From positions 1 through 25,153 of IMG/VR virus record IMGVR_UViG_3300032561_000114: a stretch of DNA of 25,153 nucleotides, one strand, 5' to 3'. Source of the stretch: a virus. Shown one piece after another: positions 860 through 24,503 of the stretch (positions are counted from its first letter, which is position 1; each line of letters starts with the position of its first letter). A model generated the notes under the pieces. The model did no database searches. It was not told the DNA's origin and was given only the letters and a program-made list of their open reading frames with translations. The position numbers and the translations under genes are program-made.

Positions 860-1165
860 TTATTCGCGGTCCCGTTCGACCTCCTCCGCCAATCCCACCG
901 CCGCCCATTGCCGGACCAGCCCGGCCGCGTCCGATGGGATATTGGCGCACCATGCCTTGCCGGCCGGCGACGCGGGCGGGTTCTCGGCGCACAGCATGTC
1001 CTTGAACGGCTTGTCCACCGCCAGGGCGGTATCCAGATCGGTCGCCGCCGATTGCACCAGGGCGATGGTGCCGGTGCCGGCCCCGCCCATCCCCAGCACC
1101 GCCGGCAGCGCCGCGCAGCCCGAGAGGCCGAGCACCGCCACCGCCACGACCATGGCGCGGATCAC
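860..1165 (-). CDS. small lipoprotein, candidate outer spanin
   Basis: The product has about 101 residues. I choose the GTG at 1165 because it overlaps the upstream stop (GTGA) and gives a signal peptide with Arg3. The alternative ATG is at 1153. The signal ends in a lipobox, LSGC, at residues 14-17, so diacylation and membrane anchoring are expected. The mature part is small, Gly/Ala-rich at first, with two more cysteines. It is the last gene of the lysis group, after an endolysin and membrane proteins. That position fits an Rz1-like outer-membrane spanin partner, but no family is recognised and the protein is longer than typical Rz1. Confidence 0.6.
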   Translation of the reverse strand: MIRAMVVAVAVLGLSGCAALPAVLGMGGAGTGTIALVQSAATDLDTALAVDKPFKDMLCAENPPASPAGKAWCANIPSDAAGLVRQWAAVGLAEEVERDRE

Positions 1166-1887
1166 TTCGCGGCCGGATCGTTGGCCACGGCGGGCACCAC
1201 CCCCACCAGGGTCAGCACCACCGCCTTGACCGCCGTGAGGGCCTGGGTCTGGCCGTCCTGGCCGGCCATGGGGAGGCCGCAGGCTGCCGTGGGCGGCACG
1301 GCCTGGGAGGCCCGCCACTGGGCGAGCGGGCAACCGAGAATGGCGGTTTCCGCCTGGACGAAGGCGACGGAGGCCGAGGTCTCGGCCAGGGCAATGTCCG
1401 AGACCACGGCCGGATCGCGGCACAGCGTGGCGCCCGCCCCGCAGGCCGGCAGGCCGGAATAGGCCGCCGCCCCGATCAGGGCGGCCTGATAGCCGTCTTC
1501 GGCCAGCAGCAGATCGCTCTGAATCTGGCTGGTGGTGGCGGGAGCCGAGCAGGCCGACAGGCCGCCCGCCGCCAGCAGCAGACCCAGCAGGAGACTGCCG
1601 GTGACGAGGCCGGGATTGGCGGGCGGCACCGGAGCGGGCGGGATGGCCGGAGGGGGGGGAGCGGGCGGCGTCAGGCCGGCGAGACTCGCCACGGTGGCGC
1701 CGATGCCGTCAGGGACCAGGATGGCGATCAGGCACAGGGCCAGAGGCTGGACGAGGCCCAGCCACATGGGCAGGCTGCCCTCCTGCCACGCGGAAGGCTG
1801 GCCGGCGACGGTGGCGATGGCGGTCAGGGCGGCGGCGATGGCCGCCTGGGACACGCGCTCTTTCGCGCGGTCGGCAATGTAGGACAT
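1162..1887 (-). CDS. holin-like membrane protein fused to a lipoprotein-like domain
   Basis: The protein has 241 residues. The start is the ATG at 1887, with GGAGAA 5-10 nt upstream. The N-terminus has hydrophobic stretches at about residues 15-28 and 41-58, like a small phage holin. A Pro/Ala linker (about 73-92) leads to a third hydrophobic segment (94-112) ending in a perfect lipobox-like LSAC (110-113). A Cys-containing, Ala-rich domain follows to the end. It looks like a holin joined to a lysis lipoprotein. No ATG, GTG or TTG near residues 90-97 would allow separate translation. Endolysin lies just upstream and a second lipoprotein downstream, so a lysis role is likely. The exact mechanism is unknown. 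Confidence 0.6.
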   Translation of the reverse strand: MSYIADRAKERVSQAAIAAALTAIATVAGQPSAWQEGSLPMWLGLVQPLALCLIAILVPDGIGATVASLAGLTPPAPPPPAIPPAPVPPANPGLVTGSLLLGLLLAAGGLSACSAPATTSQIQSDLLLAEDGYQAALIGAAAYSGLPACGAGATLCRDPAVVSDIALAETSASVAFVQAETAILGCPLAQWRASQAVPPTAACGLPMAGQDGQTQALTAVKAVVLTLVGVVPAVANDPAAK

Positions 1888-1902
1888 GGCGATTCTCCAA
1901 TG

Positions 1903-1932
1903 AAAAAGCCGCCGGGCGAGATGCCGGGCGGC
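1903..1932 (-). terminator. intrinsic terminator between endolysin and holin-like gene
   Basis: GCCGCC (1908-1913) pairs with GGCGGC (1927-1932). One mismatch and three further GC pairs close a 5-nt loop. On the minus strand the hairpin is followed by TTTTT (1903-1907) and then directly by the GGAG ribosome site of the next gene. Confidence 0.75.
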
Positions 1933-1957
1933 AATATTTGTGCTCAAGCCCTGGGGA

Positions 1958-2539
1958 TCAGGCCGGTCCTCCGCAGGCCTCACGGACGCCCGCCAGCAGA
2001 TCGGCGGCACTCACCCACCGCTCGGCGGCCTCCTGGCCGTTCTCGCGGCAGATGACGGCGTAGACCAGACGGCCCAGCATGGCGGCATGGCTCAGGTCAA
2101 GCCCGGCATCGGGCGCGACGCCGGCGCTTTCCGCCACATAGGCGATATAGCCGGCGGTGTCGTTTTCGCCGGGCGGCGCCCAGCGCCCGACGATGGCGGC
2201 GACGGTGTCGAGGCGATGGAGCGTCTGGTAATTCCGGATCAGCCTGGCCATGGCCCGGACCCCGTCGGTCATGGTGTCGAAGGTGATGAAGTCGGGGTCA
2301 TCGCCCGGGACTTCCCCCCGCCACGGCGCGATGCCGTGGCGGATATTGCCGGGATTGTTGTTGCGCAACCCGCGCGGCAGAGCCTGCCCCGGACTTGATC
2401 CGGGGGTAACGGAAGCGGTACCGGTTGCTGCGGCTTGTGGGCCATTTGGCACATTTGCTTCGCTGTGGGTCTTCGACACATTTGCTTCGCTGTGGGTCTT
2501 CGACACATTTGCTTCGCTGTGGGTCTTCGACACATTCAT
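1958..2539 (-). CDS. phage endolysin (peptidoglycan hydrolase) with repeat-bearing N-terminus
   Basis: The protein has 193 residues from the ATG at 2539, which overlaps the upstream stop (ATGA) and has AGGAG about 10 nt upstream. The catalytic part starts near residue 55 with GLRNNNPGNIRHG. This motif is typical of a phage lysozyme-like endolysin family often labelled structural protein P5. A conserved block with WAPPGENDTAGYIAYVA follows. The enzyme would cleave peptidoglycan at lysis. The N-terminus is unusual: residues 2-28 are three exact copies of a nonapeptide beginning NVSKTHSEA. The linker around residues 43-52 is encoded by a GC-rich palindromic repeat. No signal peptide is visible, so export should depend on a holin. 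Confidence 0.8.
   Translation of the reverse strand: MNVSKTHSEANVSKTHSEANVSKTHSEANVPNGPQAAATGTASVTPGSSPGQALPRGLRNNNPGNIRHGIAPWRGEVPGDDPDFITFDTMTDGVRAMARLIRNYQTLHRLDTVAAIVGRWAPPGENDTAGYIAYVAESAGVAPDAGLDLSHAAMLGRLVYAVICRENGQEAAERWVSAADLLAGVREACGGPA
2387..2405 (-). repeat. alphaproteobacterial palindromic element inside the endolysin gene
   Basis: CCCCGGA and TCCGGGG arms flank a 5-nt centre. The surrounding bases match the second copy at 22944-22962 in opposite orientation over roughly 28 bp. This REP-like palindrome is familiar from alphaproteobacterial genomes. Here it is read in frame and encodes part of the linker (TPGSSPGQA). Confidence 0.75.
2450..2536 (-). repeat. three exact 27-bp tandem repeats plus a 6-bp partial copy
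   Basis: Identical 27-bp units occupy 2450-2476, 2477-2503 and 2504-2530, with a partial copy at 2531-2536. Being a multiple of three, each unit adds nine residues (NVSKTHSEA) to the endolysin N-terminus. The exact identity suggests recent expansion by slippage or insertion. Confidence 0.95.
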
Positions 2540-2883
2540 GTCTGGGGACTCCTCTTGGTTGGCGAACGTCGGCGCTTGACCGCCGCCGGACACGGCATCC
2601 GCTCGGCCAGGTCGTTGATCTGGCGGTCACGCTCCTCCAGGGCGTCGTCGAGACGGCGCAATTCGGAAGCATGCACGGCGAGGGGGACATAGGTGGCGCC
2701 GATATGCGCCCTGAGATTCTCGATCAGGGCATGGGTCCGGGTGGTGCGCTCCTCGCCCAGGGTGGCGGCGCGGTCGAACTGTTTCTTGATGGCGCCGTAG
2801 ACGGTCCACAGCCCGCCGCAGATGATGCCGACGGCAACCAGGACGGCGCCGAGCGCCTGCCAGGTGATGGGGGTTTCCGGCAT
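2536..2883 (-). CDS. membrane protein with coiled coil, candidate inner spanin or holin
   Basis: The product has 115 residues. One membrane segment at about residues 9-32 is followed by a charged, heptad-rich region (about 33-90) likely to form a coiled coil, then a strongly basic tail. An N-terminal membrane anchor plus coiled coil is the layout of inner-membrane spanins (Rz-like). Small single-span phage holins and DUF2730-like proteins look similar. AAGGAA about 11 nt upstream supports the ATG at 2883. The stop overlaps the endolysin start, so the two are translationally coupled. Position beside endolysin supports a lysis role; the choice between spanin and holin is open. Confidence 0.65.
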   Translation of the reverse strand: MPETPITWQALGAVLVAVGIICGGLWTVYGAIKKQFDRAATLGEERTTRTHALIENLRAHIGATYVPLAVHASELRRLDDALEERDRQINDLAERMPCPAAVKRRRSPTKRSPQT

Positions 2884-2954: not shown

Positions 2955-3455
2955 TTACCAGGTGACGGCCAGGACCGCCGCGACGGTGGTGGCGGCGGCG
3001 ACCTCGGCCTTGAGCGTCTGGAGATGCTGGAATGCGGTCCAGCCTTGAGCCAGCATCGCCGCCGCCAAACCCTGGAGATCAGCGAAGCTGAACGGCACCT
3101 GGGTATTGTCCGCCGCGACCCAATAGAATCCGGCCGGCGTTGCCTGAGCGCCGGACAGGCCGGCCAGGGTCTGCTGCAAAACGGTGATGGAGCCGGGGTC
3201 GGCCTGGAAGGTCTTGGTCACCTTGGCGGCGGTGGTGAAGCTGACCGGCTGGGCGCAGGCCGCCGCATAGGCGGCGCCGAGGCTGACGCCCTGGGCTCCT
3301 TGAGCATCGGCGACAACCCCCGCCGTGTATGCGGGGAAGGCCGCCGCCAACTGCTCCGGAGTGGCGTAATCGGGGAAGATGACCTCGCCCGATCCGGCTT
3401 GATATTCGGGATCGACGGCGCGAAAAGCCCGTCCATTATTGGAGTAGACGTACAT
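2955..3455 (-). CDS. tail-fibre-associated protein, DUF4376-like
   Basis: The protein has 166 residues. The C-terminal half (about residues 70-166) carries the block AGFYWVAADNTQVPF, then DLQGLAAAM, GWTAFQHLQTLKAEV and a terminal AVTW. I recognise this as the DUF4376 pattern found next to phage tail fibres. The N-terminus (YSNNGRAFRAV) resembles the start of fibre-assembly or fibre-cap proteins. Its ATG overlaps the fibre stop (TAATG), so the two are coupled. A role as fibre chaperone or distal fibre subunit is inferred from position. Confidence 0.7.
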   Translation of the reverse strand: MYVYSNNGRAFRAVDPEYQAGSGEVIFPDYATPEQLAAAFPAYTAGVVADAQGAQGVSLGAAYAAACAQPVSFTTAAKVTKTFQADPGSITVLQQTLAGLSGAQATPAGFYWVAADNTQVPFSFADLQGLAAAMLAQGWTAFQHLQTLKAEVAAATTVAAVLAVTW

Positions 3456-5509: not shown

Positions 5510-5524
5510 ACGGGCGCTCCAACG

Positions 5525-5547
5525 AAAAAGACCGCCGGGACAGGCGG
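5525..5547 (-). terminator. intrinsic terminator ahead of the tail fibre gene
   Basis: CCGCC (5532-5536) pairs with GGCGG (5543-5547) around a 6-nt loop. TTTTT (5525-5529) follows on the minus strand. The sequence after the T-run (CGTTGGAG) is nearly the same as after the terminator at 1903, and again gives the ribosome site of the next gene. Confidence 0.65.
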
Positions 5548-5589
5548 CGGACGTGAGGGGGCCGAAGCCCACAGTGAGGGGCGGAAAAA

Positions 5590-7288: not shown

Positions 7289-7651
7289 CTACTGAAGATC
7301 GAAGGCGAGGGTGACGGGCGAGCCGCTGCCGGCATCGGTATAGGCGATGTCCACCGACAGGCCGTTGGGGATGGCGGTGACCGTCACCACCGGGGCGGGA
7401 TCGGGGGCGACCGCCGGTTCCAGCGTCATCTGGCCGCCGATCAGGGCGGCGATCTCGGCCACCGCCGGCGTCAGCCCGACATAGGTGGGCAGACCGGCGC
7501 CATACCCCGGCTGCCACAGATATTCCCCCGGATTGGTCAGCAGGCGGCGCAATACCCGCTGGCGGCCCATCTCCAGGCCATCGACGATGGCGAGGTCGCC
7601 GGTGGGACCGAACGACAGGTCGCCGGCCCACAGATGCGCGAGATCGGGCAT
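7289..7651 (-). CDS. baseplate wedge protein W (gp25/gp46-like)
   Basis: The protein has 120 residues. The segment LAIVDGLEMGRQRVLRRLLTNPGEYLWQPGYGAGLPTYVG (about 21-60) is characteristic of gp25/gp46-type wedge proteins. It includes the conserved Arg-Arg-Leu and Pro-Gly-Glu core that nucleates sheath assembly. It lies between the spike gene V and gene J, as in P2- and Mu-like phages. The stop is 12 nt from the J start. Confidence 0.85.
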   Translation of the reverse strand: MPDLAHLWAGDLSFGPTGDLAIVDGLEMGRQRVLRRLLTNPGEYLWQPGYGAGLPTYVGLTPAVAEIAALIGGQMTLEPAVAPDPAPVVTVTAIPNGLSVDIAYTDAGSGSPVTLAFDLQ

Positions 7652-9547: not shown

Positions 9548-10449
9548 GATGCCGCCGCCATGACGGCGGGGCCGTTCCAGCCGCCGTCGCCGTCGATCTG
9601 GTTGCCCAGATTGGTGGCGGCCCGGTTGGTCAGGCTTTGCAGGGCCAGCAGTTGCGCCATCTGCTGGAAGGCCAGCGACGACATCGCCAGGGTCGCGGCC
9701 GATGCCAGCGCCGCCATGCCGCCGCCCGGCAGCGCCGTCGCCTGGAGCAGCGGCGCGGTCACCGCGATGGCGGCGGTGACGGAATTGGACAGGCCGAGCA
9801 GCGATCCCATCAGGGCGCTGGACGGTCCCGCCGCGGTGGCGCCGGCTGCTGCCGCCCCGATCAGCGCGCCGATGGCGGTATAGTTGCCGGCCCGGACGGA
9901 CTGATAGGCGGCGTAGGCGGTGGCCACGGCGCGCAATTGGGTCAGGACGTTGGCCTCGGCGAGACCGAGGGCCTGCATGGCGGCCATATCGGCGGCCAGG
10001 GCCTGATCGACGCTGGGGGGCGTCGCCAGCAGGGGGCGATTGCTGTTGATCACCACCGACAGGGTCAGCTTGTAGGGAATCTCCAGCCCGGCCATCTGAA
10101 CGTCGTAATGGAACCGGCGGATCACCACCTGGCGGCGGAACCCGCTGAAGGTGAGGGTCAGTTGGCGGCCCCCTGCCCGCAGGGTGTCGAGGCGCAGGGC
10201 GCGAAGCTGGGCATTGGCGCCACGGAACCGCCCGCTCCATTCCACGTCGCGCTCGTCCGGTCCCATGGCGTCGATCACCCGGACGCCGCCGGGCAGCTTG
10301 TGCTCGGCCAGCATATGATCGCCGCCCAGCGGCAGGGATTCGGGGATCTCGAACTCGGAGAACACCACGTCGCCCAAGGTCAGGTTGGGGCCAGCCGAGA
10401 GCATCTGTCCGGAGGGGCCGGCGCTCGATGATGTTGGGGTGACGGGCAT
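9544..10449 (-). CDS. tail/baseplate protein, gpU-like N-terminus with Ala-rich tail
   Basis: The protein has 301 residues from the ATG at 10449, which overlaps the tape-measure stop by one base (TGATG). Residues about 18-140 carry a gpU-like pattern: LTLGDVVFSEFEIPESLP, HKLPGGVRVIDAMGPDERDVEWSGRF, RALRLDTLRAGGRQLTLTF and YKLTLSVV. The C-terminal half is Ala/Leu-rich helix, likely extending along the hub. Position between tape measure and gpX supports a baseplate-tail tube junction role. Confidence 0.7.
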   Translation of the reverse strand: MPVTPTSSSAGPSGQMLSAGPNLTLGDVVFSEFEIPESLPLGGDHMLAEHKLPGGVRVIDAMGPDERDVEWSGRFRGANAQLRALRLDTLRAGGRQLTLTFSGFRRQVVIRRFHYDVQMAGLEIPYKLTLSVVINSNRPLLATPPSVDQALAADMAAMQALGLAEANVLTQLRAVATAYAAYQSVRAGNYTAIGALIGAAAAGATAAGPSSALMGSLLGLSNSVTAAIAVTAPLLQATALPGGGMAALASAATLAMSSLAFQQMAQLLALQSLTNRAATNLGNQIDGDGGWNGPAVMAAAS

Positions 10450-12038
10450 CAGGGCATCATCGGCAGGAAGGTGGGGGCGAGCGACTGGCGGCCGTCGAAG
10501 CCGGTCCCGGAATCCGGGGCGCGGTCCATGCCGTCGGCCATGTGTTTGGTGACGCTGGTGGCGATGACCTTGCCGTCGAGTACGGTCGTGTTGGTCAGGT
10601 TGATGGTCTGGGGCTGCCCCCCAATGCCGAATTTCTCCCGCTGCTCGGCATAGCTCAGGCCGAAGCCGACCTTGCTGGCCTTGTCGTCGATCCACGACAT
10701 GCCGGGGATGGTCTTATCCATCCAGCCGCCGGCCTTGTCCTCGGGATCGACGGCGGAGACCACCCCATGGGCGACCGCCCCATAAACCCCGCCCTTGGCC
10801 AGCAGCGCGATCAACGGTCCCAGCGCCCCGCCAAGGGCGGTGAATCCGTTCGACAGGCCCATCAGCTTGGCCCCTGCAGGAAACCCCTTAAGCGCCAGCC
10901 CCAGCGTGGCGATCCCACCCGAGACCGGCATCAACACGCCGCCAAGGCCGGCGGCGGCGGCAAGACCCGCCGCCCCGATCTTGACCCATTTTGTGAGGGT
11001 GCCGTGCTCTCGGGCAAAGGCCATGACCCGCTCAAGGACGCCATTGAGGCGCTCGAACCCGGCGATGGCCAGCGGCAGGATGTTGCGCCCAGGCTCCGGC
11101 GTCAGATCGGCGCGCCGCGCCTCGTCTTGGAGGAGCTTGCCGCTCAGTGTGCCGGCGCCGGCGGTGGCCATGCTCTGTTGAATCCCCTCCCGATGGCTGG
11201 ACCTCCCCAACATCAGGTCAGTGAATTTGCGATCGCCGGTCATCCTGGACAGCGCCCCCGCCATGGCGGAGCCGTCCCTGATAGCGGTGGCGCGCAGATG
11301 CTCCGTCCAGGCAAACGGGTCCGTCCCATCCTTGAGCGCGCCCGGATCGCCGCCGGCCTGCCCCGGTTCCCGCATTCCGTTCCCGGCCATCAGGTCGGCG
11401 ATTTGCCGGGTGGTGTGCCCCAGGACCCATTCCCGGCAACCGGCCAGCAGCCCGTCGCCGATTCTGCCGGGGCCGGCCGCCTTCGCCGGGTCCATCGTCC
11501 CGAGGAACAAGGCGCGGTCCGACCGTGCCTGTGCCGCGATCCCGCCGGCCATGATCAACTCCAGGGATTGATCGGGCGCCGCCCGACCGCCGGAAGCGGT
11601 ATAGGCCTTGGTGATCAGGCTCAACACGTCGTTGAAGCGATCCGGGGTGAAGCCCCCGGTCGCCGGATCGCCGAGGGGGCCGCGCTGCTCGGCGCGTTTG
11701 GGCGCATCCATGATCACCCGTTCGGCCACGTCGCCATCCCGGGCCATGGCCGAGGCGAAGTTGCCATGGTTAATACCCGGGAAGCGGAGCACCGCCAATT
11801 GGTCCTGGTGCCGCCTCGCCTCATCCAGCATCCCCTCGTCCATTTTCAGGACGAGGTTTCCCGCGGCGCGCTGAGCTCCGCCGAACGTCGACATCTTGCC
11901 GATGCGGGCCAGCCTCTGCTCCAACGCATCGGCACCCGCATTCGCCGATTGGAAGTGGCGCGACAGCGCCGCCAGACCGCTGGTAACATTCTCGATGAGG
12001 GCGATTCTCACCGCGACCTGATAGGCTTCAATCGTCAT
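10449..12038 (-). CDS. tail tape measure protein
   Basis: The product has 529 residues. I choose the ATG at 12038 (MTIEAYQVAVRI) because GAGAGG lies about 8 nt upstream; an in-frame ATG at 12092 is possible but less typical. The N-terminal helix (SGLAALSRHFQSANAGADALEQRLARIGK) is typical of tape measure proteins. A hydrophobic Gly/Ala segment near the middle-end (WVKIGAAGLAAAAGLGGVLMP) could enter the host membrane. It follows the chaperone frameshift gene and precedes baseplate genes. At about 1.5 Å per residue it predicts a tail near 80 nm, short for a myophage. Confidence 0.85.
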   Translation of the reverse strand: MTIEAYQVAVRIALIENVTSGLAALSRHFQSANAGADALEQRLARIGKMSTFGGAQRAAGNLVLKMDEGMLDEARRHQDQLAVLRFPGINHGNFASAMARDGDVAERVIMDAPKRAEQRGPLGDPATGGFTPDRFNDVLSLITKAYTASGGRAAPDQSLELIMAGGIAAQARSDRALFLGTMDPAKAAGPGRIGDGLLAGCREWVLGHTTRQIADLMAGNGMREPGQAGGDPGALKDGTDPFAWTEHLRATAIRDGSAMAGALSRMTGDRKFTDLMLGRSSHREGIQQSMATAGAGTLSGKLLQDEARRADLTPEPGRNILPLAIAGFERLNGVLERVMAFAREHGTLTKWVKIGAAGLAAAAGLGGVLMPVSGGIATLGLALKGFPAGAKLMGLSNGFTALGGALGPLIALLAKGGVYGAVAHGVVSAVDPEDKAGGWMDKTIPGMSWIDDKASKVGFGLSYAEQREKFGIGGQPQTINLTNTTVLDGKVIATSVTKHMADGMDRAPDSGTGFDGRQSLAPTFLPMMP

Positions 12039-12114
12039 GACCACGCCTCTCTCCGATACCCGCGCTTGGCTCGCCGACCGTTTCCGGTTCATCGACCACC
12101 CCGATCCTCACCAC

Positions 12115-12603
12115 CTAAACTTTGTGGTCGTATCCCAGGCTCTGATGAATCTGGGCATTGCCCCGCAGGCCCTGCACCGCAGCCGTCCCGACCAGCGTCC
12201 TGATGACCTCGTGATTGCGCTCGACCGCCGGCCCCATGAAGGGGCGCGGCGGCATCTTCGCCGTGCCGAATTCCTGGTCGACGGCAACCTCCGAGGTTGA
12301 TCCGATGACCGCCTGCCGCCCTTTCGTCTCGTGACTGATCGAGTGGAGCAACTCGCCCGACCGAAGCAGAGGGTCGTTCTCGGTGAAGCCCTGCCGCACC
12401 CGGTCTTCCTTGGTGGATTCGGCGAGTTCGGCCCAGGCGGGAAAGGGGCCGATCTCATCCTGGTAGCGGCCGATCTCGGCTTTCGCCGTGGCCTCGACCT
12501 TTCTCGCCGCCACCTCAAGGCCATGCTCAAGGGCCTTTTCGGTGACAATCCGGAGCGCCAGCAATTCGACCGCGAACGCCCCCAGGCTGCCGAATTGCTT
12601 CAT
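12115..12603 (-). CDS. HK97 gp10-like / virion morphogenesis protein
   Basis: The protein has 162 residues from the ATG at 12603, which overlaps the stop of the frameshift extension (ATGA). It contains a helical N-terminus with many Ala/Glu/Lys, the segment DPLLRSGELLHSISHE, and AKMPPRPFMGPA near residues 118-130. The PRPF(L/M)GPA signature is typical of HK97 gp10-like and Mu virion morphogenesis proteins, which act at the neck or in tail completion. These usually sit among connector genes; here it lies between the tail chaperone and the tape measure, which is odd. Confidence 0.7.
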   Translation of the reverse strand: MKQFGSLGAFAVELLALRIVTEKALEHGLEVAARKVEATAKAEIGRYQDEIGPFPAWAELAESTKEDRVRQGFTENDPLLRSGELLHSISHETKGRQAVIGSTSEVAVDQEFGTAKMPPRPFMGPAVERNHEVIRTLVGTAAVQGLRGNAQIHQSLGYDHKV

Positions 12604-13141
12604 GGCTTGCGCTCCTTGAACCGCATGGCGCCGATGTCGAATTCGGCGCCGTGGAACTCGCTGAACTTGATGGCCATCCATTGACGATGGGGGGTGTCCA
12701 GCGAGAACGCCACGTCGAAGGGGACTCCGTTATGGACGAGCCACAGGCATTCGTTGGCGGCGTCGTCCCTCAGGAGTTTTTTAGGTCGGACTCCTCCATT
12801 CCTTTCGGCATGAAGTTCTCCGCCACCGCCATCTGCACCGCCTCGTTGCCATTGTCGCCCAGACGCTGATAGAGGGCGCGCAACTGGAGTTCGTTGGAGG
12901 GGGTGGAAACGGTGTCACCATCGATCTGCCGCACGAATTTGAGGTGGGCGACCTCGGCGAGATAGATCAGGTTGAGCTTGTCACCGCCGGCCGCCTTGGC
13001 GAAATCCAGGTTGTCGAGGGGCCGGGGCTTGCCGATGACGATGACACGGCCATCGGCGTCGGTGACGGAGATGGTCGCGGCGGCGGCCTTGATGATCTTT
13101 TCCGACGGGGTTGCCCCGTCCCGCATTGTCACTTTTGCCAT
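12600..13141 (-). CDS. -1 frameshift product of the tail assembly chaperone (G-T type)
   Basis: At 12782-12776 (minus strand) the 0-frame codons CTA AAA AAC form the canonical slippery heptamer A AAA AAC, four codons before the 0-frame stop. GGAGGAG lies 8 nt upstream (12797-12791), the place of the dnaX stimulator. After a -1 slip the frame stays open for 58 codons and ends exactly at the start of the next gene (ATGA at 12600-12603), giving about 180 residues. The extension is rich in Trp, His and charged residues and reads as real protein (LWLVHNGVPFDVAFS). This is the lambda G/G-T arrangement. Coordinates give the whole span; the join is near 12776. Confidence 0.85.
12770..13141 (-). CDS. 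tail assembly chaperone (G-type short form)
   Basis: The unshifted product has 123 residues. It lies between tail tube and tape measure, where tail chaperones are encoded. The segment GKPRPLDNLDFAKAAGGDKLNLIYLAEVAHLKFVRQIDG is typical of these families, followed by the helical LQLRALYQRLGDNGNEAVQMAVAENF. The protein should coat the tape measure during tail assembly and is absent from the virion. A slippery A AAA AAC at its end yields a longer form. The ATG at 13141 is 1 nt from the tail tube stop. Confidence 0.85.
   Translation of the reverse strand: MAKVTMRDGATPSEKIIKAAAATISVTDADGRVIVIGKPRPLDNLDFAKAAGGDKLNLIYLAEVAHLKFVRQIDGDTVSTPSNELQLRALYQRLGDNGNEAVQMAVAENFMPKGMEESDLKNS
12776..12797 (-). 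promoter_or_regulatory. programmed -1 frameshift site with Shine-Dalgarno-like stimulator
   Basis: Reading the minus strand: GGAGGAG (12797-12791), 8 nt, then A AAA AAC (12782-12776) in the correct phase (CTA AAA AAC), followed by TCC TGA. Heptamer, phase, upstream SD-like element and a downstream open -1 frame are all present. Confidence 0.88.
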
Positions 13142-13142
13142 A

Positions 13143-13574
13143 TCACATCACCTTCTTGCGGCGGTTGGCGAAGCCGGCGACGCTCATCTGGATCAGCTTG
13201 TCGCCCGCCTTCTCGCCGGCATCGTCGAATTTCAGCGTCACCCCCTCGTAGCGGTACTGGCTGATGGAGCCGTCCGGGTTGGTGATGGTTTCCTGCACCG
13301 TTCCGGGCGCCTGGTTGATGCCGGCGAAATAGTCGGCCTCCACCTGGGCGAAATAGTCGTCGGCGGTGGAATCGCCGCGATCCAGCTTGAAGGTCAGATC
13401 CCAGCCGGCCGGGACATAGCCCTCGCGGTGGGTGCCGTCCAGGGCCACCGATTTGAGGTCGGTATGCTTGGGCTTGGCGTGAAAGCTGGTGGTGATGGAG
13501 AAGCTGACGAGGCCATAGGAGGTGACGATATCCACCGTCACGTCGCGGCCGACGCTTTGGTCGTTGATGGGCAT
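13143..13574 (-). CDS. tail tube protein
   Basis: The protein has 143 residues, a typical length for P2 FII/Mu M-like tubes. Beta-rich segments and the pattern VTVDIVTSYGLVSFSITTSFHAKPKHTD, GYVPAGWDLTFKLDRGDSTADDYFAQVE and a C-terminal VTLKFDDAGEKAGDKLIQMSVAGFANRRKK fit the tube fold. It directly follows the sheath gene and precedes the chaperone, the canonical order. It polymerises inside the sheath. Confidence 0.85.
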   Translation of the reverse strand: MPINDQSVGRDVTVDIVTSYGLVSFSITTSFHAKPKHTDLKSVALDGTHREGYVPAGWDLTFKLDRGDSTADDYFAQVEADYFAGINQAPGTVQETITNPDGSISQYRYEGVTLKFDDAGEKAGDKLIQMSVAGFANRRKKVM

Positions 13575-13586: not shown

Positions 13587-15131
13587 TTACGCGGCCAGGG
13601 TGTTGGTCAGGCGGACGCTGACGGACTGGCCGCCCTCCAGATTGACCAGGAAGAACCAGACGATGGACAGATACTTGACCTGGACATCGGCCTGCATGTA
13701 GCCGAGCGCCACCCGGCTGTCGGGGTTGTTGGTCTGGTCCAGCACCACGCTGAAGGCCGGGCCGCCGTTGACGTCGCCGATCATGCCCTGCTGTTCCAGG
13801 CCGGACAGGAACGCCGCGATCGAGGCCTTGGCCTTGCTCCGCAGATCCTTGGTCTGGGGCTGGCCCACCACCCAGCCATAGGACGCCGCCAGGGTGATGG
13901 CCAGGTAGTTGGTCATGCGGGTGTAGTTGTCGCCGTTGCGGGTGGGATCGCTGCTGGCGTTGCGGCCGGTGCGGCAGCCGTAATAATTGCCGCCGGGGCA
14001 GGGATTGGTCACCACGTCCAGGCGGCTGGTGGCGGTGGCGCCGATCTCGGCCAGGCTGTAGGGCTGGTTCTGGCTGCTGCGCTGGGTGCCGACCACCCCG
14101 GCCAGCGGCTGGTTGAGCGACGACAGATGCGGCGAGGTGGCGGCGATCCGGGCCGCCACCATGGTGGCCGGCGACAGCAGCCGCAGCACGCCGTTGACGG
14201 TGTCGTTCCAATAGGTCCAATCACCCACCAGCGGCTTCAGGGCCGGGTCGTCGGTGCCGGCGGTGTTGAGCAAGGTCGAGGTGGCGGAATAGGAGGTTCC
14301 GGCCGCCGCCGCGTTGACCGAATAGATCCCCTCGGACTCGGCGAAGGCGACGATGGTGGGCCAACCGGTCGAGGTGGTGTGGTCGATGAGGTTGAGCACC
14401 TGGACGCCGGAACCGCGCAGGGCGTACATGCCGGTGCGGGCCGACGGCGTCGTGCCATCGGTGCCCAGCAGCAAGGTGTCGGTGATCGTGGTGGTGCCAT
14501 CGCTGCCGCCGGAGAGGGTGACGGCGCCGGCGACGGCGGGGGCGGCGCTGGAGGTGCCGAGACTGGCCACCGCCAGCTGCGACGGACCACGGATACCGCT
14601 CTGGCCGTTGTTGACGGCGCTGACCAGATTGACCCAGAACGCCGCACCGCTGCCGCCGATATTGTCGAACACCTCGGCGGTATAGGTCGGGCGCTGGAGG
14701 GTCAGCTTGAAGCTGCCGGTCCTGGTGCCGGCGGCCATAGTTGCGGTCAGGGTGTTGCCGACCACGCCACTGTAGAACGCGGTCAGGGTAGCGCCGGTGA
14801 CGGGGGTGCCGGCGGTGTCCACCAGCGCGGCCGTGGCGGCGGCGTCGGTGCCGTCGGTGATCCGTACCGCCCGCACATTCTGGGCGCCGGCCTGAGCGGA
14901 AACCGCCAGGGCGGTGGCGAGATCGCGGGAGCGCACCGTCACCGGCCCGAAGGTATCGGGACTGGCCAGGATGGCCGAGTTGACCGGTCCCCACGACCCG
15001 ACGCCGACCAGACCGAGACTATCGGAGGGGACGCCGTTGATATAGAGGGTGCGCGGCGGAATTTTCTGGATGTAGACATCCGGGGCGGTCAGCGCCGTGG
15101 TGTTGAGCGCGCCAAGGGCATAAACGGGCAT
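13587..15131 (-). CDS. contractile tail sheath protein
   Basis: The protein has 514 residues. The N-terminus (APDVYIQKIPPRTLYINGVPSDSLGLVGVGSWGPVN) is the standard sheath start that links neighbouring subunits. The C-terminal third contains TRNGDNYTRMTNYLAITLAASYGWVVGQPQTKDLRSKAKASIAAFLSGL, typical of the conserved sheath domain IV. It shows that the particle has a contractile (myovirus-type) tail. The middle is a beta-rich surface domain with Ala/Gly/Thr repeats. Confidence 0.93.
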   Translation of the reverse strand: MPVYALGALNTTALTAPDVYIQKIPPRTLYINGVPSDSLGLVGVGSWGPVNSAILASPDTFGPVTVRSRDLATALAVSAQAGAQNVRAVRITDGTDAAATAALVDTAGTPVTGATLTAFYSGVVGNTLTATMAAGTRTGSFKLTLQRPTYTAEVFDNIGGSGAAFWVNLVSAVNNGQSGIRGPSQLAVASLGTSSAAPAVAGAVTLSGGSDGTTTITDTLLLGTDGTTPSARTGMYALRGSGVQVLNLIDHTTSTGWPTIVAFAESEGIYSVNAAAAGTSYSATSTLLNTAGTDDPALKPLVGDWTYWNDTVNGVLRLLSPATMVAARIAATSPHLSSLNQPLAGVVGTQRSSQNQPYSLAEIGATATSRLDVVTNPCPGGNYYGCRTGRNASSDPTRNGDNYTRMTNYLAITLAASYGWVVGQPQTKDLRSKAKASIAAFLSGLEQQGMIGDVNGGPAFSVVLDQTNNPDSRVALGYMQADVQVKYLSIVWFFLVNLEGGQSVSVRLTNTLAA

Positions 15132-17491: not shown

Positions 17492-18658
17492 TCAGCCCAG
17501 CAGCAGGGCGATGTGGTTGGACTTGATCGCCTGATAGCCCCAGGCCAGCCGCACCTGGTAGACCAGCTGCATGAACTGACGGTAGACCGCGATATCGAAG
17601 GTGATGCCGGTCAGCGGATCGGTGATGGACATCACGTCGTCGGCCATGTCCATGGCCTTGCCGTCCGGGCCGACCGGCATGGCCGGGGCGCGGGTGACAA
17701 GCTGCACCGCCGAGCGGGTGAAGGCGATATTGGCCATGGCGGTATTGCCGATGGTCACGGCGGTGGCGGCGGCCGGCAGCGCCACCTTGAGACCGGGAGC
17801 CGCCAGGGTGATGGCACCGGGAGCGGCGATGCCGCCGGCCACCATGTAGATATTGGCGTCGCCGGCGAAGGTGACGCGGTCGCCGGCCAGGACGGTGCCG
17901 GTGCCGGTGATCAGGGTGATGGTGGTGGCGCCGGCGGCATAGCCGGCGGTGTCGGTGGTGTAGCCGGCGCCGGTGCCCTTGGTCACCGCCTGGACGGCGT
18001 TGGAGTTGCGGATGTTCATGCCTTCCAGCTCGCCGATGATGCCCTGGCGCAGCAGCGCGTCGGTGCCGGCCTCGTTGACCTTGAACAGCACGTTCTGCTT
18101 GCCGCGCAGATTGGCGATGGCGGCCGAACCGAGGGCAAGCTGAAGGTCACCCTGGGGCGTGCCGTTGTCGTCCAGGATCTTGCGGACCTGGGCGATGTCC
18201 GACAGGTCGCCGGCCGTGCCGAACGGGGTGGAGCCGGCGGTGCCGTAAGCGCGGGAGGCGTTCTGGGACGCCGTCGTCCACAGGTCGATGTCGATCTGGT
18301 TGGTGATGGCGCGGAACGCCTGGACGAACTGGTTGGTCAGGATGCCGCCATAGCTGCCGGCATTGATCAGGCCGCGCTGTTCCTCGCCGTTCCAGCGGAT
18401 CGGGGCGTGCTTGGAACGGCTGATGGTCATGGCGACATTGCCGACGGTCTGGTCGCCCTCATTGGGCGCCGTGACGGCGGGGGTGTTGTCGGACAGGGTG
18501 GTGGCCGGCGCGATGGGGACCAGGATGGTCTGGTTGAGGGCGGCGCGTTCGGCGCTGGAATTGCGCGCCACGGCGGGGATGAAGCCGATCTGTTCGCGCG
18601 AGACCACGTCGAGGGCCTCATAAATGGTCGGTACCAGGGAGGTCAGGGTATTGGCCAC
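17492..18658 (-). CDS. major capsid protein, P22 coat-like
   Basis: The protein has 388 residues. It starts with GTG at 18658, with GGAG 9 nt upstream. The N-terminus (PTIYEALDVVSREQIGFIPAV) and the block QTVGNVAMTISRSKHAPIRWNGEEQRGL match the P22 gp5 coat family (HK97 fold). Residues about 228-305 (GATTITLITGTGTVLAGDRVTFAG … GAITLAAPGL) form a beta-rich insert in the position of the P22 I-domain. It is preceded by a scaffold gene. A P22-type coat is usually linked to short tails; here it is linked to a contractile tail. Confidence 0.88.
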   Translation of the reverse strand: MANTLTSLVPTIYEALDVVSREQIGFIPAVARNSSAERAALNQTILVPIAPATTLSDNTPAVTAPNEGDQTVGNVAMTISRSKHAPIRWNGEEQRGLINAGSYGGILTNQFVQAFRAITNQIDIDLWTTASQNASRAYGTAGSTPFGTAGDLSDIAQVRKILDDNGTPQGDLQLALGSAAIANLRGKQNVLFKVNEAGTDALLRQGIIGELEGMNIRNSNAVQAVTKGTGAGYTTDTAGYAAGATTITLITGTGTVLAGDRVTFAGDANIYMVAGGIAAPGAITLAAPGLKVALPAAATAVTIGNTAMANIAFTRSAVQLVTRAPAMPVGPDGKAMDMADDVMSITDPLTGITFDIAVYRQFMQLVYQVRLAWGYQAIKSNHIALLLG

Positions 18659-18731: not shown

Positions 18732-19490
18732 TCAGTCGGTGACGGTGCCGCCGGCCTTGACGTGGGCCATGCGCTGCTCGGGAGGCATGCGGTCGAAGGC
18801 GGCGCGGTCGAGGGTCCTGGTTCCGGGGCGAAGGGCATGGCCGCCGCCTTGGGCGCCGCCGCCGGAGGCCCCCGACCCCTTCACGATGTGGTCGCGGTAG
18901 GGATAGTGCTCGATCAGCAGTTCCAGGGCTTCGTCGAACCCGGCGGCCTCGCCCGGGCGGGCGCGACTGAACAGCTTGTTGCCGGCCTTGTCGTAGGCCA
19001 CCACGTCGCCGCCCTCCAGGCGGAAGGACTCGCCGAAGCGGGCCTGGGCCAGATCGGCGGGAATGGCCAGCTTGTCGGCGATGAACCGGGAGCGGGCGAA
19101 GGCGCCGCCCAGCTTCTCGCTCACCAGGGCGGTCTTGAGGTCGTCGCGTTCCTTGAGGACCGGGGCGTATTTCTCCTCCACCGCCTTGATCGCCTCGGCC
19201 TTGGCCTGGTGGACCTCGGCGGCCCCCACCAGGGTCTTGGCGTCGAGTCCCTTGACCGTCTCCAGGGCCTTCAGCGCCGCGCCGGCATCGGTGATGCCCT
19301 CGAACCCCTTGAGCCCGGCTTCGGCCTTTTCGGCCCGTTCCCGGTGGCCCTTGGCCTCGCCGTTGAGGCGGGAGATGGTGGCGACGGTGCCGGCGGCGTC
19401 AAAGGCGATTTCCTTGCCGTCGTCGTGGACATAGACCGGTTTGCCGTCCTGCACGACCACATGGCCGTTATCGTCGAGCTTGAGTTTCAT
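18732..19490 (-). CDS. capsid scaffolding protein, DUF6651-like
   Basis: The protein has 252 residues. The N-terminus begins MKLKLDDNGHVVVQDGKPVY, with VHDDGKEIAFD, followed by a long Ala/Glu/Lys-rich helical region (about 40-135, coiled-coil-like) and a flexible Gly-rich C-terminus (GSGASGGGAQGGGHALRPG). This is the pattern of phage scaffolds placed between portal and coat genes, and I recognise the DUF6651 style. It would guide procapsid assembly and then be lost. No protease gene is seen next to it. Confidence 0.75.
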   Translation of the reverse strand: MKLKLDDNGHVVVQDGKPVYVHDDGKEIAFDAAGTVATISRLNGEAKGHRERAEKAEAGLKGFEGITDAGAALKALETVKGLDAKTLVGAAEVHQAKAEAIKAVEEKYAPVLKERDDLKTALVSEKLGGAFARSRFIADKLAIPADLAQARFGESFRLEGGDVVAYDKAGNKLFSRARPGEAAGFDEALELLIEHYPYRDHIVKGSGASGGGAQGGGHALRPGTRTLDRAAFDRMPPEQRMAHVKAGGTVTD

Positions 19491-19594: not shown

Positions 19595-20977
19595 TCAGGT
19601 GGGCTGGTCGTCCTTGACCGGCGGCGGCTTGGCGGCCAACTTGCCCTGCTCGTCGTCCCAGCTCAGATCGGGGGCGATGATGTCGCGGCGCCGCAACTGG
19701 TGGAACACCGTCTCCGACGACACATGGCCGCCAGCGGCGGCGCGCAACAGGATGTCGCTGGACCGTTCGGACAGATCGGTGGCGCCGAAATCCTTGAACA
19801 TCTCGACTTCGGCGGTGACGGTCTCGCCGATCCACGCGCCCATCAAGCGGAGGCATTCCGCGAGGGAATCCTCGAAGGTCTCGGTGATGCGCTGCAGGAT
19901 CGAGCGGCTGGCCTCGCCCTCGGAGACCGTCTGGGTGGCGGTGGCGATGGTGGGCTTTTGCACCAGCAGTTCGGCGCCGATCTGGCGCATGCGGTCCTCG
20001 GTGTCGATCAGCGCCTGACGGCCGGCCTCGATGGCGGCGCCGCTATGCTCGACATATTTGAGTTCGGCATCCGGGCTGGCGCTGGACACCGCCGAACTGG
20101 CCCCGACCAGGATGGAATCGCCCTCGGCGAACCCCTTGGCGAACAGGATCGGCACCCGGGCCACATGCAGGATGGTCTGCTGGTCCGAAGCCGATTGCCA
20201 ATGCTCCACATTGAGATAGGCCAGGTCGAGCAGCGGCGGCGGGCCGAGACCGAAGCCATCGCGCAGGCCGTAGAAGAACACGAAGGGAATCGTCGTCAGG
20301 GTGGTGGTGCCCTGGCTGTGGAGCACCCACTCCTCCCTGTCGCCGGTGCCGGCGGATGCCTGGCGCCAGATAGCCCAAGCGCCGGGAGTCAGGACCCGGA
20401 CCTGGGTAATCGTGGCCTCGCCGAAATCGCCATCGGCCTCGGTCACCTGTTCCAACAGGCGCAACTGGGTCAGGATGGTGCCTTGCGGACCCCGGGCCGA
20501 GCGCCAGCCCAAAATGGTCTTGGCGGGGTAGAGGGCCAGATAGGGCCGGATGCCGCGGGCAACCTCGTCGGCCCGGGTCACCGCCCCCTCGGCGGGGGGG
20601 CATTCCACCAGCACCCCGGCCAGGCCATAGCGCAGGCAGGCCAGCATCACCTGCGCCGCGAAGGCATGCAGGGTGCTGCCGGCCATGTCGATATCGGCGA
20701 TCAAACCGGCGATGGCGGGCGGCAGCTCGCCCAGGCCGATGGGCTTGGACAGCGGCTTGGCCGCCAGCACGGCGGTGGTACGGCTGAACGCCGGGAACAG
20801 GGTGGCGACGGCAAGGCGGGTCTGGTAGCTGGACTCGTCTTCCTTGGGCCATTGCGGCAGGAACGCCCTGCCGGCGGCGCGCATGGCCTTGGTGCCGCCC
20901 ACCAGGGCGTCGATCATCGGCCAGTGTTCGGCCATGGCGGCGACGGCGGCGGATTGATCGCTTACTTGGGATGCCAT
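19595..20977 (-). CDS. portal protein, DUF4055-like
   Basis: The protein has 460 residues. It shows the DUF4055 pattern: WPMIDALVGGTKAMRAAGRAFLPQWP at the N-terminus, DESSYQTRLAVATLFPAFSRT, IDMAGSTLHAFAAQVMLACLRYGLAGVLVECPP (about 94-126), GIRPYLALYPAKTILGWR, and IPFVFFYGLRDGF near the middle. The C-terminus is Pro/Lys/Asp-rich. It forms the dodecameric DNA gate at one capsid vertex. It follows the large terminase by 9 nt. Its ATG at 20977 has GAGG upstream. Confidence 0.85.
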   Translation of the reverse strand: MASQVSDQSAAVAAMAEHWPMIDALVGGTKAMRAAGRAFLPQWPKEDESSYQTRLAVATLFPAFSRTTAVLAAKPLSKPIGLGELPPAIAGLIADIDMAGSTLHAFAAQVMLACLRYGLAGVLVECPPAEGAVTRADEVARGIRPYLALYPAKTILGWRSARGPQGTILTQLRLLEQVTEADGDFGEATITQVRVLTPGAWAIWRQASAGTGDREEWVLHSQGTTTLTTIPFVFFYGLRDGFGLGPPPLLDLAYLNVEHWQSASDQQTILHVARVPILFAKGFAEGDSILVGASSAVSSASPDAELKYVEHSGAAIEAGRQALIDTEDRMRQIGAELLVQKPTIATATQTVSEGEASRSILQRITETFEDSLAECLRLMGAWIGETVTAEVEMFKDFGATDLSERSSDILLRAAAGGHVSSETVFHQLRRRDIIAPDLSWDDEQGKLAAKPPPVKDDQPT

Positions 20978-20986: not shown

Positions 20987-22255
20987 TCACAGGGAAAGAT
21001 TGACCACCCGCGCCGCAGGTGGCCTGACCACCGGCCACAGCTTGACCACGACATATCCCAGGGCGTCCGGGGCATGGTCCTTGCCGGCCGCCTTGTCCGG
21101 CTCGCCGTGCCGGTCGTAGACCTGTTGCTCCAGGCACTCGGTCAGCACCGGGCAGCGCCGGGTATTGATCAGCAACCCGCGCCGGGCCTCGCCGTTGCAG
21201 ATCACGGCGCCGACCGCCGCCACCCGGTCCTTGACGGCGGGATTGGTGGGGTTGACCACCACCGTCAGGCCGTGATCCTTGAGAATCTGCAGGTCCGACA
21301 GCGAGGCGTTGACCGTCTTGTGGCCCTGGCCGCTGGCATCGGGATAGACGGTGACCGGATGGTCCCGGTCCCGGTAGCGTTCCTTCAGCAGGCGGGCCAG
21401 GGCCGGGGTATCGCGCAACCCGGTCAATTCGTCGAGGATCAGCGGCCGGCCGTTGCGGATCGCCACGATCACCGCGGTGCAGTTATAGACGTTGAAATCG
21501 ACCCCGGCATGGACCGCCTCGCCCGGCGCCAATTCGGCGTCGGTGTGGTTCGCGCGCCGGCAGAAATCCGGGTAGACGGTGCCGCTGGTCAGGTTGACGA
21601 AGCGCCCCTCCAGATAGGCGTCGAGCAATTGCGGCGAATAGGTCGAGCGCAACTGCTCCATATAGCCCTGGGGCAGAAACGGATTGGAGCGGGTCGGCGC
21701 CCGGAACAGCCGGTAACCCTGCCGCCGGTCGCGCTGCCACAGACAGTAGACCAGCCGGAACCCTTCCGGCGTCGTCGCCACCGCGGCGGTGTTGGGGGTT
21801 CCGTCCGGCTTTCTCTGCCGGCAGCGGGCGATGATCCGGTCCCAGGCCTTCCTGGCGTGGTCTTCGCGTAGCGTATCCAGCTCGTCGACCCCGGCATCGG
21901 CGATCTGGAAGCCGACGATGCGTTCGGGAACCTCCATGGAACGGAAGATGATCTGGCCGCCGGTCGCCAGCCGCATGACCTTCTCCGACCGGTTCAGCCG
22001 GTAGCGGATTTTCCAGGCGTCGAGCTTTTCCTCGAACCGGGGCCAGGCGATCAGCCGGATCAGGTCGAAATTGGGGGCGAAGTAACCCACATCCAGCCGG
22101 GGATGGCGGAACTTCAGCAGCAACAGCCGCACCACCAGGGCCTCGGACTTGCCGGCGCCATAGCCGCCGACGAAGGCCGGAAAGGGATCGCCGGCGAACA
22201 CGAAGTCGAACTGCGGCGCGGTCAGTTCCGGGGTAACCTCAATCCGCCGTCCCAT
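20987..22255 (-). CDS. terminase large subunit (packaging ATPase/nuclease)
   Basis: The protein has 422 residues. The true start is the ATG at 22255, with GAAGGA 6 nt upstream and a 17-bp overlap with the small subunit; the ORF extended upstream is a shadow. Walker A is GGYGAGKS (30-37). Walker B/catalytic is AGVDELD with Asp124-Glu125. The C-terminal RNase H-like nuclease has acidic residues in HAGVDFN, in VYPDASG, and at Asp393/Asp397 in DHAPDALGY. It cuts concatemers and translocates DNA through the portal. All key residues are present. Confidence 0.92.
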   Translation of the reverse strand: MGRRIEVTPELTAPQFDFVFAGDPFPAFVGGYGAGKSEALVVRLLLLKFRHPRLDVGYFAPNFDLIRLIAWPRFEEKLDAWKIRYRLNRSEKVMRLATGGQIIFRSMEVPERIVGFQIADAGVDELDTLREDHARKAWDRIIARCRQRKPDGTPNTAAVATTPEGFRLVYCLWQRDRRQGYRLFRAPTRSNPFLPQGYMEQLRSTYSPQLLDAYLEGRFVNLTSGTVYPDFCRRANHTDAELAPGEAVHAGVDFNVYNCTAVIVAIRNGRPLILDELTGLRDTPALARLLKERYRDRDHPVTVYPDASGQGHKTVNASLSDLQILKDHGLTVVVNPTNPAVKDRVAAVGAVICNGEARRGLLINTRRCPVLTECLEQQVYDRHGEPDKAAGKDHAPDALGYVVVKLWPVVRPPAARVVNLSL

Positions 22256-22667
22256 CGCCGATCCTTCGCACCGTGACCATGATCGCGTCGGCCACCTCAT
22301 CCGCCCCGGCGGCATCGACCTTGGCCTTCTGCGCCGCCAGCTCGACCCGGGTGGCCTGGGCCGCGGTGCGCACCGCGCGGGCGATGCGGGCATCGATGGC
22401 GTCGGTGTCCCTCTGGGGGTCCTGCGTCGCCGCGTCATGGGCGGCGAGGGCTCGCTGGGTCATCAGGTTGGCCAGCACCCGCATGCGCTCGACCGGGTCG
22501 GGCGGCGGCGGCTCCGGATCGGCGGGCGTGTCCCGGGGAGCGTCCGCGTCATGGCGCCGGCAAAGGCCGGTGCCGGGATGGCCGGTGCCCCAGCCCGCCT
22601 TGCGCCGGCAGGGTCCGCCGCGTCGGGTTGGGGCGCCGCATTGGCTCTGGAGAGGATGGACCGCCAC
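22239..22667 (-). CDS. terminase small subunit-like protein with Cys/His zinc site
   Basis: The protein has 142 residues. It starts with GTG at 22667, with GGAG 8 nt upstream. Residues 10-39 hold Cys10, Cys20, Cys36 and His39 in CGAPTRRGGPC … GTGHPGTGLCRRH, a putative zinc knuckle found at the start of many phage small terminases. A Pro/Asp-rich linker (about 40-60) leads to a helical C-terminal half (VERMRVLANLMTQRALAAHD, ARIARAVRTAAQATRVELAAQKAKVDAA) for oligomerisation. It lies directly before and overlaps the large subunit, so it most likely recognises the packaging site. Confidence 0.75.
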   Translation of the reverse strand: MAVHPLQSQCGAPTRRGGPCRRKAGWGTGHPGTGLCRRHDADAPRDTPADPEPPPPDPVERMRVLANLMTQRALAAHDAATQDPQRDTDAIDARIARAVRTAAQATRVELAAQKAKVDAAGADEVADAIMVTVRRIGDGTAD

Positions 22668-23619: not shown

Positions 23620-23658
23620 GGCGCATCGACACAAGGGGTAAGGAATCGGCATGGCGAG

Positions 23659-23687
23659 AGTATCGCGTTATAACGCTAAACGGTCAA
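23659..23687 (-). promoter_or_regulatory. repressed leftward lytic promoter
   Basis: On the minus strand TTGACC (23687-23682) is separated by exactly 17 nt from GATACT (23664-23659): a near-consensus sigma70 promoter. Predicted start near 23652, about 110 nt before the first gene. The palindrome GCGTTATAACGC fills the promoter-proximal part of the spacer, so repressor binding would block RNA polymerase directly. Confidence 0.85.
23665..23676. promoter_or_regulatory. repressor operator O1
   Basis: Perfect 12-bp palindrome GCGTTATAACGC, abutting the -10 of the leftward promoter. An identical copy lies 34 bp away centre to centre. The context (next to an S24 repressor gene) makes it the likely operator. 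Confidence 0.85.
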
Positions 23688-23698
23688 GCCGGGATTTC

Positions 23699-23710
23699 GC
23701 GTTATAACGC
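23699..23710. promoter_or_regulatory. repressor operator O2
   Basis: Second perfect copy of GCGTTATAACGC, also preceded by TC, 11 bp upstream of the leftward -35. It contains TATAAC on the plus strand, which could serve as a -10 for the repressor gene and give autoregulation; no good -35 accompanies it. Confidence 0.8.
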
Positions 23711-23888
23711 ACTCGGGAGTCTGCTATCCCGTGTCTCGATGAGCACGACTCATCGAGACACGGTCGGGCGCGACTGCGACCGCGCCGCTCGTGCGGCGAA
23801 AGCCAAGGCGGACGGAGCTCCGCCGCCCGGCGACTGAGGGCCCGTTGATCGGTTCCGATCAACGGGATTTGGTATTACACTGCCGGCC
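23711..23888. repeat. hairpin-rich spacer between operators and repressor gene
   Basis: A perfect 15-bp stem with 5-nt loop lies at 23729-23743/23749-23763. A bulged GC stem surrounds GGAGCTCC near 23810-23832. A perfect 12-bp palindrome with 2-nt centre lies at 23841-23852/23855-23866, 22 bp before the repressor start. If transcription starts at O2 this would be a structured leader. Otherwise it is a spacer with possible extra binding sites or a host repeat. A 64-codon minus-strand ORF here (23668-23862) is not convincing. Confidence 0.7.
23853..23881 (+). promoter_or_regulatory. possible promoter for a leaderless repressor mRNA
   Basis: TTCCGA (23853-23858), 17 nt, then TACACT (23876-23881). 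The predicted start falls on or next to the ATG at 23889, and no ribosome site is visible before that ATG. A leaderless transcript, as for lambda cI from PRM, is plausible. The hexamers are weak. Confidence 0.35.
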
Positions 23889-24503
23889 ATGGACGCCACA
23901 GAAACCATCCGGGCCGAGTTCAAGCGCTATCTGGCCGCCCATCCCCGCTTGAACGTCAACGCCTGGGCCCACGCCGCCGGGGTCAGCGAGGGGGGGCTGC
24001 GCGATTTCATCAAGGGCCGGGTCAAGACCATCACCGTCAATCAGGTCGAGAAGCTGGCCAAGGCCATCGGCCGCCACGCCGCCGACTTCATCCTTCCGGC
24101 CACGGTGCCGGTGGTGGGCAGGGTCGGGGCCGGGGCCGAGATGCATCCGTTCGACGATGGCCCCAACGGCTCGGGCATCGGCGAGGTCGGCGCCCCGCCC
24201 GGATGCCCCGCCGATGCCGTGGCGGTGGAGGTGGTGGGCGAGTCCATGTTCCCGGATTATTGGGAAGGCGACGTGCTGCTCTATCGCCGCGACTTCCCGT
24301 TCGACCGCTCCGGCTGCCTCTACCGCCATTGTGTGGTCAAGGTGGCCGAGGGGCCGACCCTGGTGAAGCGGATCAAGCCCGGCAGCGCCCCGGACCGGTT
24401 CACCCTCGAATCGACCAACGCGCCGCCGCGCCCGGATCAGCGGATCGAATGGGCGGCACCGATTTTTCACCACGACATGAGCCGGCGCAAACCGCTGGGG
24501 TAA
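23889..24503 (+). CDS. prophage repressor, LexA/CI-like S24 peptidase with HTH
   Basis: The protein has 204 residues. An N-terminal helix-turn-helix spans about residues 22-60 (NAWAHAAGVSEGGLRDFIKGR). The C-terminal S24 domain has the self-cleavage site Ala81-Gly82 (VGRVGAGAE), nucleophile Ser119 in GESMFPDYWEGD and general base Lys160 in LVKRIKP. The spacing (82 to 119 to 160) fits the LexA/CI family. RecA-dependent self-cleavage after DNA damage should therefore induce the prophage. It is divergent from the phage operon. Its likely targets are the two GCGTTATAACGC sites. No Shine-Dalgarno precedes the ATG. Confidence 0.9.
   Translation: MDATETIRAEFKRYLAAHPRLNVNAWAHAAGVSEGGLRDFIKGRVKTITVNQVEKLAKAIGRHAADFILPATVPVVGRVGAGAEMHPFDDGPNGSGIGEVGAPPGCPADAVAVEVVGESMFPDYWEGDVLLYRRDFPFDRSGCLYRHCVVKVAEGPTLVKRIKPGSAPDRFTLESTNAPPRPDQRIEWAAPIFHHDMSRRKPLG

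Follow-up and report, generated by a model that had tools for sequence, protein, structure and literature searches.

A contractile-tailed phage late module with an unusually short interval between an SOS-type repressor and its packaging genes

Introduction

When a viral sequence encodes a whole contractile particle and its lysis genes, with no visible integrase or replication gene, is it a prophage that has lost its early genes, a longer prophage seen in part, or a particle kept by its host? IMG/VR record IMGVR_UViG_3300032561_000114 raises this question. We analyzed the entire record of 25,153 bases (hereafter, the window); it is classed as linear and the window may therefore be a fragment. 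The original prediction, made from the letters alone, offered a minimal prophage, a deletion relic, and a domesticated element as possible readings.

Results

What the window carries is the half of a common contractile-tailed phage that makes the particle; this half is intact and comes either from a shortened prophage or from a longer one cut by the record end. In profile searches the minus strand, read from 23.5 kb to 0.86 kb, begins with an orphan gene, continues through terminase, portal, scaffold, P22-type coat, and a complete contractile tail, and ends with fibres and lysis genes; a repressor on the plus strand faces them (Table 1). The predicted inventory and gene order, running from the repressor through a single unknown gene to packaging, head, contractile-tail, fibre, and lysis genes, are thus borne out. 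Across the 25,153 bases these searches returned no match to integrase families and none to replication or recombination families. The longest ORF of the large terminase begins at 22438, and the 22255 start agrees better with relatives, many of which encode a protein of 176–187 aa overlapping the terL start at the small-terminase place. Among the lysis genes, homology supports the endolysin only.

Table 1. Features of the window and the basis of each assignment
Feature	Position	Strand	Basis
LexA/CI-type repressor, S24 peptidase domain	23889..24503	+	phrog_4, E 3.5e-11; PF00717 above cut-off
Promoter-like site and two perfect GCGTTATAACGC palindromes	23659..23710	-	putative operator of leftward operon
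Orphan gene, 239 aa	22822..23541	-	sole gene between repressor and terminase genes
Small terminase subunit, probable	22239..22667	-	position, HGGxSTG-like motif, weak NF041373 (E 0.028)
Large terminase	20987..22255	-	Terminase_6N/6C
Portal protein	19595..20977	-	phrog_145, E 1e-119
Head scaffolding protein (DUF6651)	18732..19490	-	profile matches
Major head protein, P22-coat type	17492..18658	-	phrog_283, E 1e-101; PF11651
Head completion/neck genes	16877-17305, 16243-16980, 15314-16183	-	phrog_14539, 14605, 13532; syntenic in relatives
Tail sheath	13587..15131	-	phrog_23, E 3e-33
Tail tube, probable	13143..13574	-	follows sheath; phrog_12993 (no function given); synteny
Tail assembly chaperone with -1 frameshift	12600..13141	-	slip site A AAA AAC, 12782-12776
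Tail completion protein, HK97 gp10-like	12115..12603	-	phrog_26, TIGR01725
Tape measure	10449..12092	-	phrog_28
Baseplate genes, first two	9544-10440, 9353-9750	-	profile matches
Baseplate hub/D	8263-9369	-	profile matches
Baseplate V	7655-8410	-	profile matches
Baseplate W	7289-7651	-	profile matches
Baseplate J	6254-7276	-	profile matches
Further baseplate protein	5590-6252	-	profile matches
Fibre	3455 to about 5590	-	profile matches
Fibre assembly protein (DUF4376)	2955-3455	-	profile matches
Lysis, membrane protein	2536-2883	-	sequence and position
Endolysin	1958-2539	-	phrog_873, E 3e-47, for 1958-2593
Lysis, membrane protein	1162-1887	-	sequence and position
Lysis, lipoprotein-like	860-1162	-	sequence and position
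Intrinsic terminator of late operon	740..766	-	

Conserved positions are largely retained. The large terminase keeps 62/63 invariant residues (columns conserved in 97% or more of 83 aligned sequences), and fifteen other late genes show 0–2 departures each at conserved columns; the tape measure shows 24 and baseplate J 13, and some of those inspected are gaps or mild substitutions. In the repressor, both the S119/K160 dyad of the S24 family and the A81-G82 cleavage site are preserved. The tail chaperone retains its slip site A AAA AAC, which extends a 123-aa frame to a 180-aa fusion whose stop is overlapped by the tail completion start at 12603. These results agree with the original prediction that the terminase and repressor residues and the frameshift site are intact. 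To judge by these residues, the repressor, packaging, particle, and lysis parts look functional, and the intact late genes argue against advanced decay without demonstrating domestication.

On the evidence of synteny, the late module is a member of a widespread group of temperate myophages that includes phage phiKX1, an Aquitalea element, and the plasmid RHOApg. Members share a structural module with a P22-like coat or its replacement, a sheath, and baseplate J; a related sheath is encoded on 320 IMG/VR stretches, and the synteny is found in IMG/VR records up to 64 kb and, for structural genes, in complete genomes of 53–55 kb at 26–63% identity. Komagataeibacter phage phiKX1 (LC644975, 53.2 kb), a mitomycin C-induced phage with a myovirus-type particle (PMC8566455), resembles the window in the order of terminase, sheath, baseplate, and endolysin; unlike the window it carries an early block of ~10.5 kb and an integrase, the latter separated from the repressor by an arm of 8.3 kb, and its coat, portal, and scaffold have no detectable relation to the window's. 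The element in Aquitalea sp. USM4 (NZ_CP029540, 54.4 kb) shares the late module in syntenic order, with identities of 62% for sheath, 63% for scaffold, 49% for portal, and 46% for coat, and likewise has an S24 repressor divergent from the early/late strand, but has DnaB and NinB in an 8.7 kb early block and an integrase 12.6 kb past the repressor. The alphaproteobacterial Rhodovastum atsumiense plasmid RHOApg (NZ_OW485608, 55.5 kb) is also syntenic (coat 63%, scaffold 63%, and portal 52%); it differs in being a phage-plasmid with RepA, ParA, and DnaB, and its terL has no detectable relation to the window's. Four relatives of 25–28 kb (L071, L079, L095, and L106) were considered as compact copies and rejected as apparent fragments: in 3/4 the fibre gene ends 0.4–2 kb from the record end and the searches gave no terminase relative, and the fourth is cut off by the record end within its tail genes.

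The absence of an early block between repressor and terminase is real and is the one solid anomaly of the window. Repressor and small terminase are 1.2 kb apart, an interval that holds a single orphan gene and two palindromes. Across five comparators the corresponding distance is 7.5 kb (Paracoccus Pyei1), 8.7 kb (the Aquitalea element), 10.5 kb (phiKX1), 11.0 kb (Mesorhizobium MseS-P1), and 11.3 kb (RHOApg, which has an unrelated regulator). Distances come from annotated complete genomes; naive ORF calling upstream of terL was too noisy in relatives. A block of at least 7 kb between repressor and terminase characterizes the three complete members of the phiKX1/Aquitalea/RHOApg group (8.7–11.3 kb) as well as the two further phages Pyei1 and MseS-P1 and is not found here, and replication genes lie within it in 4/5 comparators (Pyei1, MseS-P1, the Aquitalea element, and RHOApg). 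Its absence is informative because the interval lies fully within the window. No relative among the IMG/VR loci examined, in searches that reach close relatives only, has the same short junction. The original prediction that the repressed promoter leads straight into packaging genes is therefore upheld, and this arrangement is unusual in the phage group.

Within the short interval lie a leftward promoter-like match (TTGACC-17-GATACT, −35/−10) and the GCGTTATAACGC palindromes, at 23665-23676 and 23699-23710. Two such matches arose in 0/100 shuffles, and the tandem palindromes are likely the operator of the leftward operon. Neither the operator pair nor the hairpin arm is matched in IMG/VR. The gene at the repressor position of phiKX1 shares 37% identity with the window's repressor over 129 aa in the S24 domain; by close-match search, none of the related IMG/VR loci examined has a relative of that repressor or of the orphan gene next to its terminase. 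The orphan gene has a basic N-terminus (KKRGRPR), a GC3 of 0.83, and no relative in PHROGs, Pfam (above cut-off), NCBIfam, PDB, phages, plasmids, or IMG/VR. Its structure model was unusable (pLDDT 35), and a weak match in G1165 was dismissed once that locus was read. Position and basic N-terminus suggest that it is possibly a late regulator.

Absence of an integrase is uninformative, since its usual place lies 3.8–12.6 kb past the repressor and only 650 bp of that side is in the window. Four complete phages share a layout in which the repressor diverges from the early/late strand and the integrase lies at the distal end of the arm that carries the repressor, starting 3.8 kb (MseS-P1), 8.3 kb (phiKX1), 10.3 kb (Pyei1), or 12.6 kb (Aquitalea) beyond the repressor. 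Among related IMG/VR records, 9/20 encode a tyrosine integrase, and all nine are about 40 kb or longer. The claim of missing genes holds for replication genes in the repressor-terminase interval, and for the window as searched; the missing integrase is an effect of the record end. The 650 bp past the repressor hold a low-GC orf with a weak resemblance, below cut-off, to an NTF2-fold immunity protein; cargo of a prophage and DNA of a host island are equally plausible origins for it. On the left lies a secreted HNH-like gene, accessory and scattered in its distribution. No att-like direct repeat of at least 11 bp joins the two flanks. Neither the non-phage character of the flanks nor element boundaries at 860 and 24503, both part of the original prediction, find support here, the right flank being only these 650 bp and the left the scattered HNH-like gene.

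Discussion

We place the probability at roughly 0.5 that the window derives from a prophage that is reduced or defective. It would represent the late half of a phiKX1/Aquitalea/RHOApg-group phage whose early block was lost or replaced by one orphan gene. The block that normally lies between repressor and terminase would have supplied replication, recombination, and cro-like control. In such a prophage, DNA damage would activate RecA and lead the repressor to cleave itself; the freed leftward promoter would then drive transcription of the orphan gene, which may encode a late activator, and onward of the packaging, particle, and lysis genes. Lacking its own replication, the element might use a P22-type headful terminase to fill heads with surrounding chromosome or from host pac-like sites, as PBSX does, and these heads would be built for about 53–55 kb by the genome size of relatives. 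Against early-block loss, replication and recombination genes also occur beyond the repressor elsewhere: on this side, which in our case lies past the window's end, Aquitalea carries ERF and SSB, and a helicase and a DNA polymerase III beta subunit are encoded in Pyei1. Since no second genome among those searched has the same junction, the short interval could reflect either one isolated deletion or a join made during assembly.

A tentative alternative is that an ordinary, complete temperate prophage is seen in part, one whose integrase, recombination, and replication genes would sit past the repressor, beyond the record end, and whose cro-side arm happens to be short. The position of the integrase in the four complete phages relative to the 650 bp visible, its restriction to records of ~40 kb or more among the 20 related ones, and the resemblance of the other 25–28 kb relatives to truncated fragments are all consistent with it. 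The short repressor-terminase block speaks against it, being unique to the window when 4/5 comparators hold replication genes there, as do the visible 650 bp, which are low in GC and without a phage-like match.

It is improbable that the window represents a domesticated, chromosomally fixed particle, GTA-like or PBSX-like with a contractile tail, selected for host-DNA transfer or for killing relatives. The full, intact particle and lysis set, the SOS-type repressor, and the lack of visible mobility genes fit such an origin, as does the gene order, which follows that of PBSX from the repressor through middle gene(s) and terminase to late genes and lysis (PMC8347963). PBSX is a contractile cassette under repressor control whose particles take up random 13-kb pieces of host DNA (PMC8347963), and both it and the PBSX-like element of B. 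pumilus resemble the window in having a contractile cassette behind an SOS-type repressor and in length. Here too, terminase heads the late operon and lysis genes end it; the contractile particle and lysis cassette are complete, and an SOS-type repressor and putative operators precede the late cassette, as read from sequence. PBSX also has a known late sigma factor, holds the same place across strains, and packages host DNA, traits that are hypothetical for the window; the resemblance serves as a working analogy rather than as membership.

A syntenic copy is absent from all genomes searched, and no relative shares the repressor or orphan gene by close-match search, both of which count against domestication. 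Genome searches used the HNH gene, repressor, orphan gene, and sheath as queries and included candidate orders chosen by tetranucleotide and codon composition of 20-kb stretches (1–3 genomes per order), in which no match turned up. With no syntenic copy in a second genome among those searched, the comparison of syntenic loci proposed with the original prediction had no partner, and the key test for domestication is not passed. We regard as doubtful, to a similar degree, that the window encodes an SOS-released contractile gene-transfer particle from the P22-coat myophage group, in which removal of the early block has linked the self-cleaving repressor and a single small new regulator straight to packaging, and heads of ~53–55 kb capacity carry host DNA. 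Such a particle would be unrelated to RcGTA: the window carries a contractile sheath, a P22-type coat, and a baseplate J set in place of a non-contractile, siphovirus-like cluster homologous to RcGTA. The interpretation first offered has partial support: the joining of promoter to packaging genes is real, and integrase absence is no evidence for any of its three readings, each of which is possible.

Finally, it is very unlikely that the window is part of a RHOApg-like phage-plasmid with replication and partition genes in place of an integrase; RHOApg does have RepA, ParA, the same structural module, and no annotated integrase, but RepA and ParA are absent from the 25,153 bases of this possibly fragmentary record and in RHOApg lie between the lysis genes and early region, outside the window's span.

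For phages of this layout, short viral contigs cannot be called integrase-less, as the integrase lies 4–13 kb beyond the repressor. If the junction is real and fixed, the reduced prophage would be a natural example of a prophage turning into a nonreplicating particle maker, in which one deletion puts the particle genes under direct SOS control.

Genes and repeats in the flanks and the endolysin gene

Sequences on both sides of the repressor-to-lysis gene cluster, and a repeat at the start of its endolysin gene, are collected in the table. Homologues of the HNH-like protein have a sporadic distribution in proteobacteria and Streptomyces, some being plasmid-borne and others chromosomal. The homologue carried by one sequence, L153, lies near a tRNA, in overlap with a reading frame of the kind that antisense translation typically gives, which suggests that the HNH-like gene is an island gene. 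The inverted repeat lacks a T-run and has no copy in IMG/VR; RNA of the surrounding region (730-870) is predicted to be very stable (z -7.5). At the other end, the product of the low-GC orf matches the NTF2-fold immunity family PF15631 weakly, at 19.0 bits (cut-off 26).

Features at the flanks and in the endolysin gene
Feature	Coordinates	Location	Remark
Secreted HNH-like protein	223-723	left flank of the cluster	family not known
Perfect inverted repeat	788-852	between last lysis gene and HNH gene	24 bp, loop 17 nt
27-bp triplication, in frame	2445-2536	endolysin gene start	encodes NVSKTHSEA x3
Low-GC orf	24673-25086	directly behind repressor	GC 40-46%

Fibre protein

The fibre protein (3455-5590) shows a sub-threshold match to PF21916, the second domain of Mtd, the tropism protein of BPP-1, and no match to a reverse transcriptase was found anywhere in the window.

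Acetobacter phage phiAO1

The 34.1-kb record of Acetobacter phage phiAO1 (LC644971) contains terminase, DUF2184 and baseplate J genes among host metabolic genes, with sorbosone dehydrogenase, peroxiredoxin, Cu-Zn SOD and catalase interleaved, and no integrase anywhere along its length. Its particle is of the myovirus type and was induced with mitomycin C (PMC8566455). phiAO1 looks like a chromosomally fixed contractile element that resembles PBSX or a gene-transfer agent (GTA).
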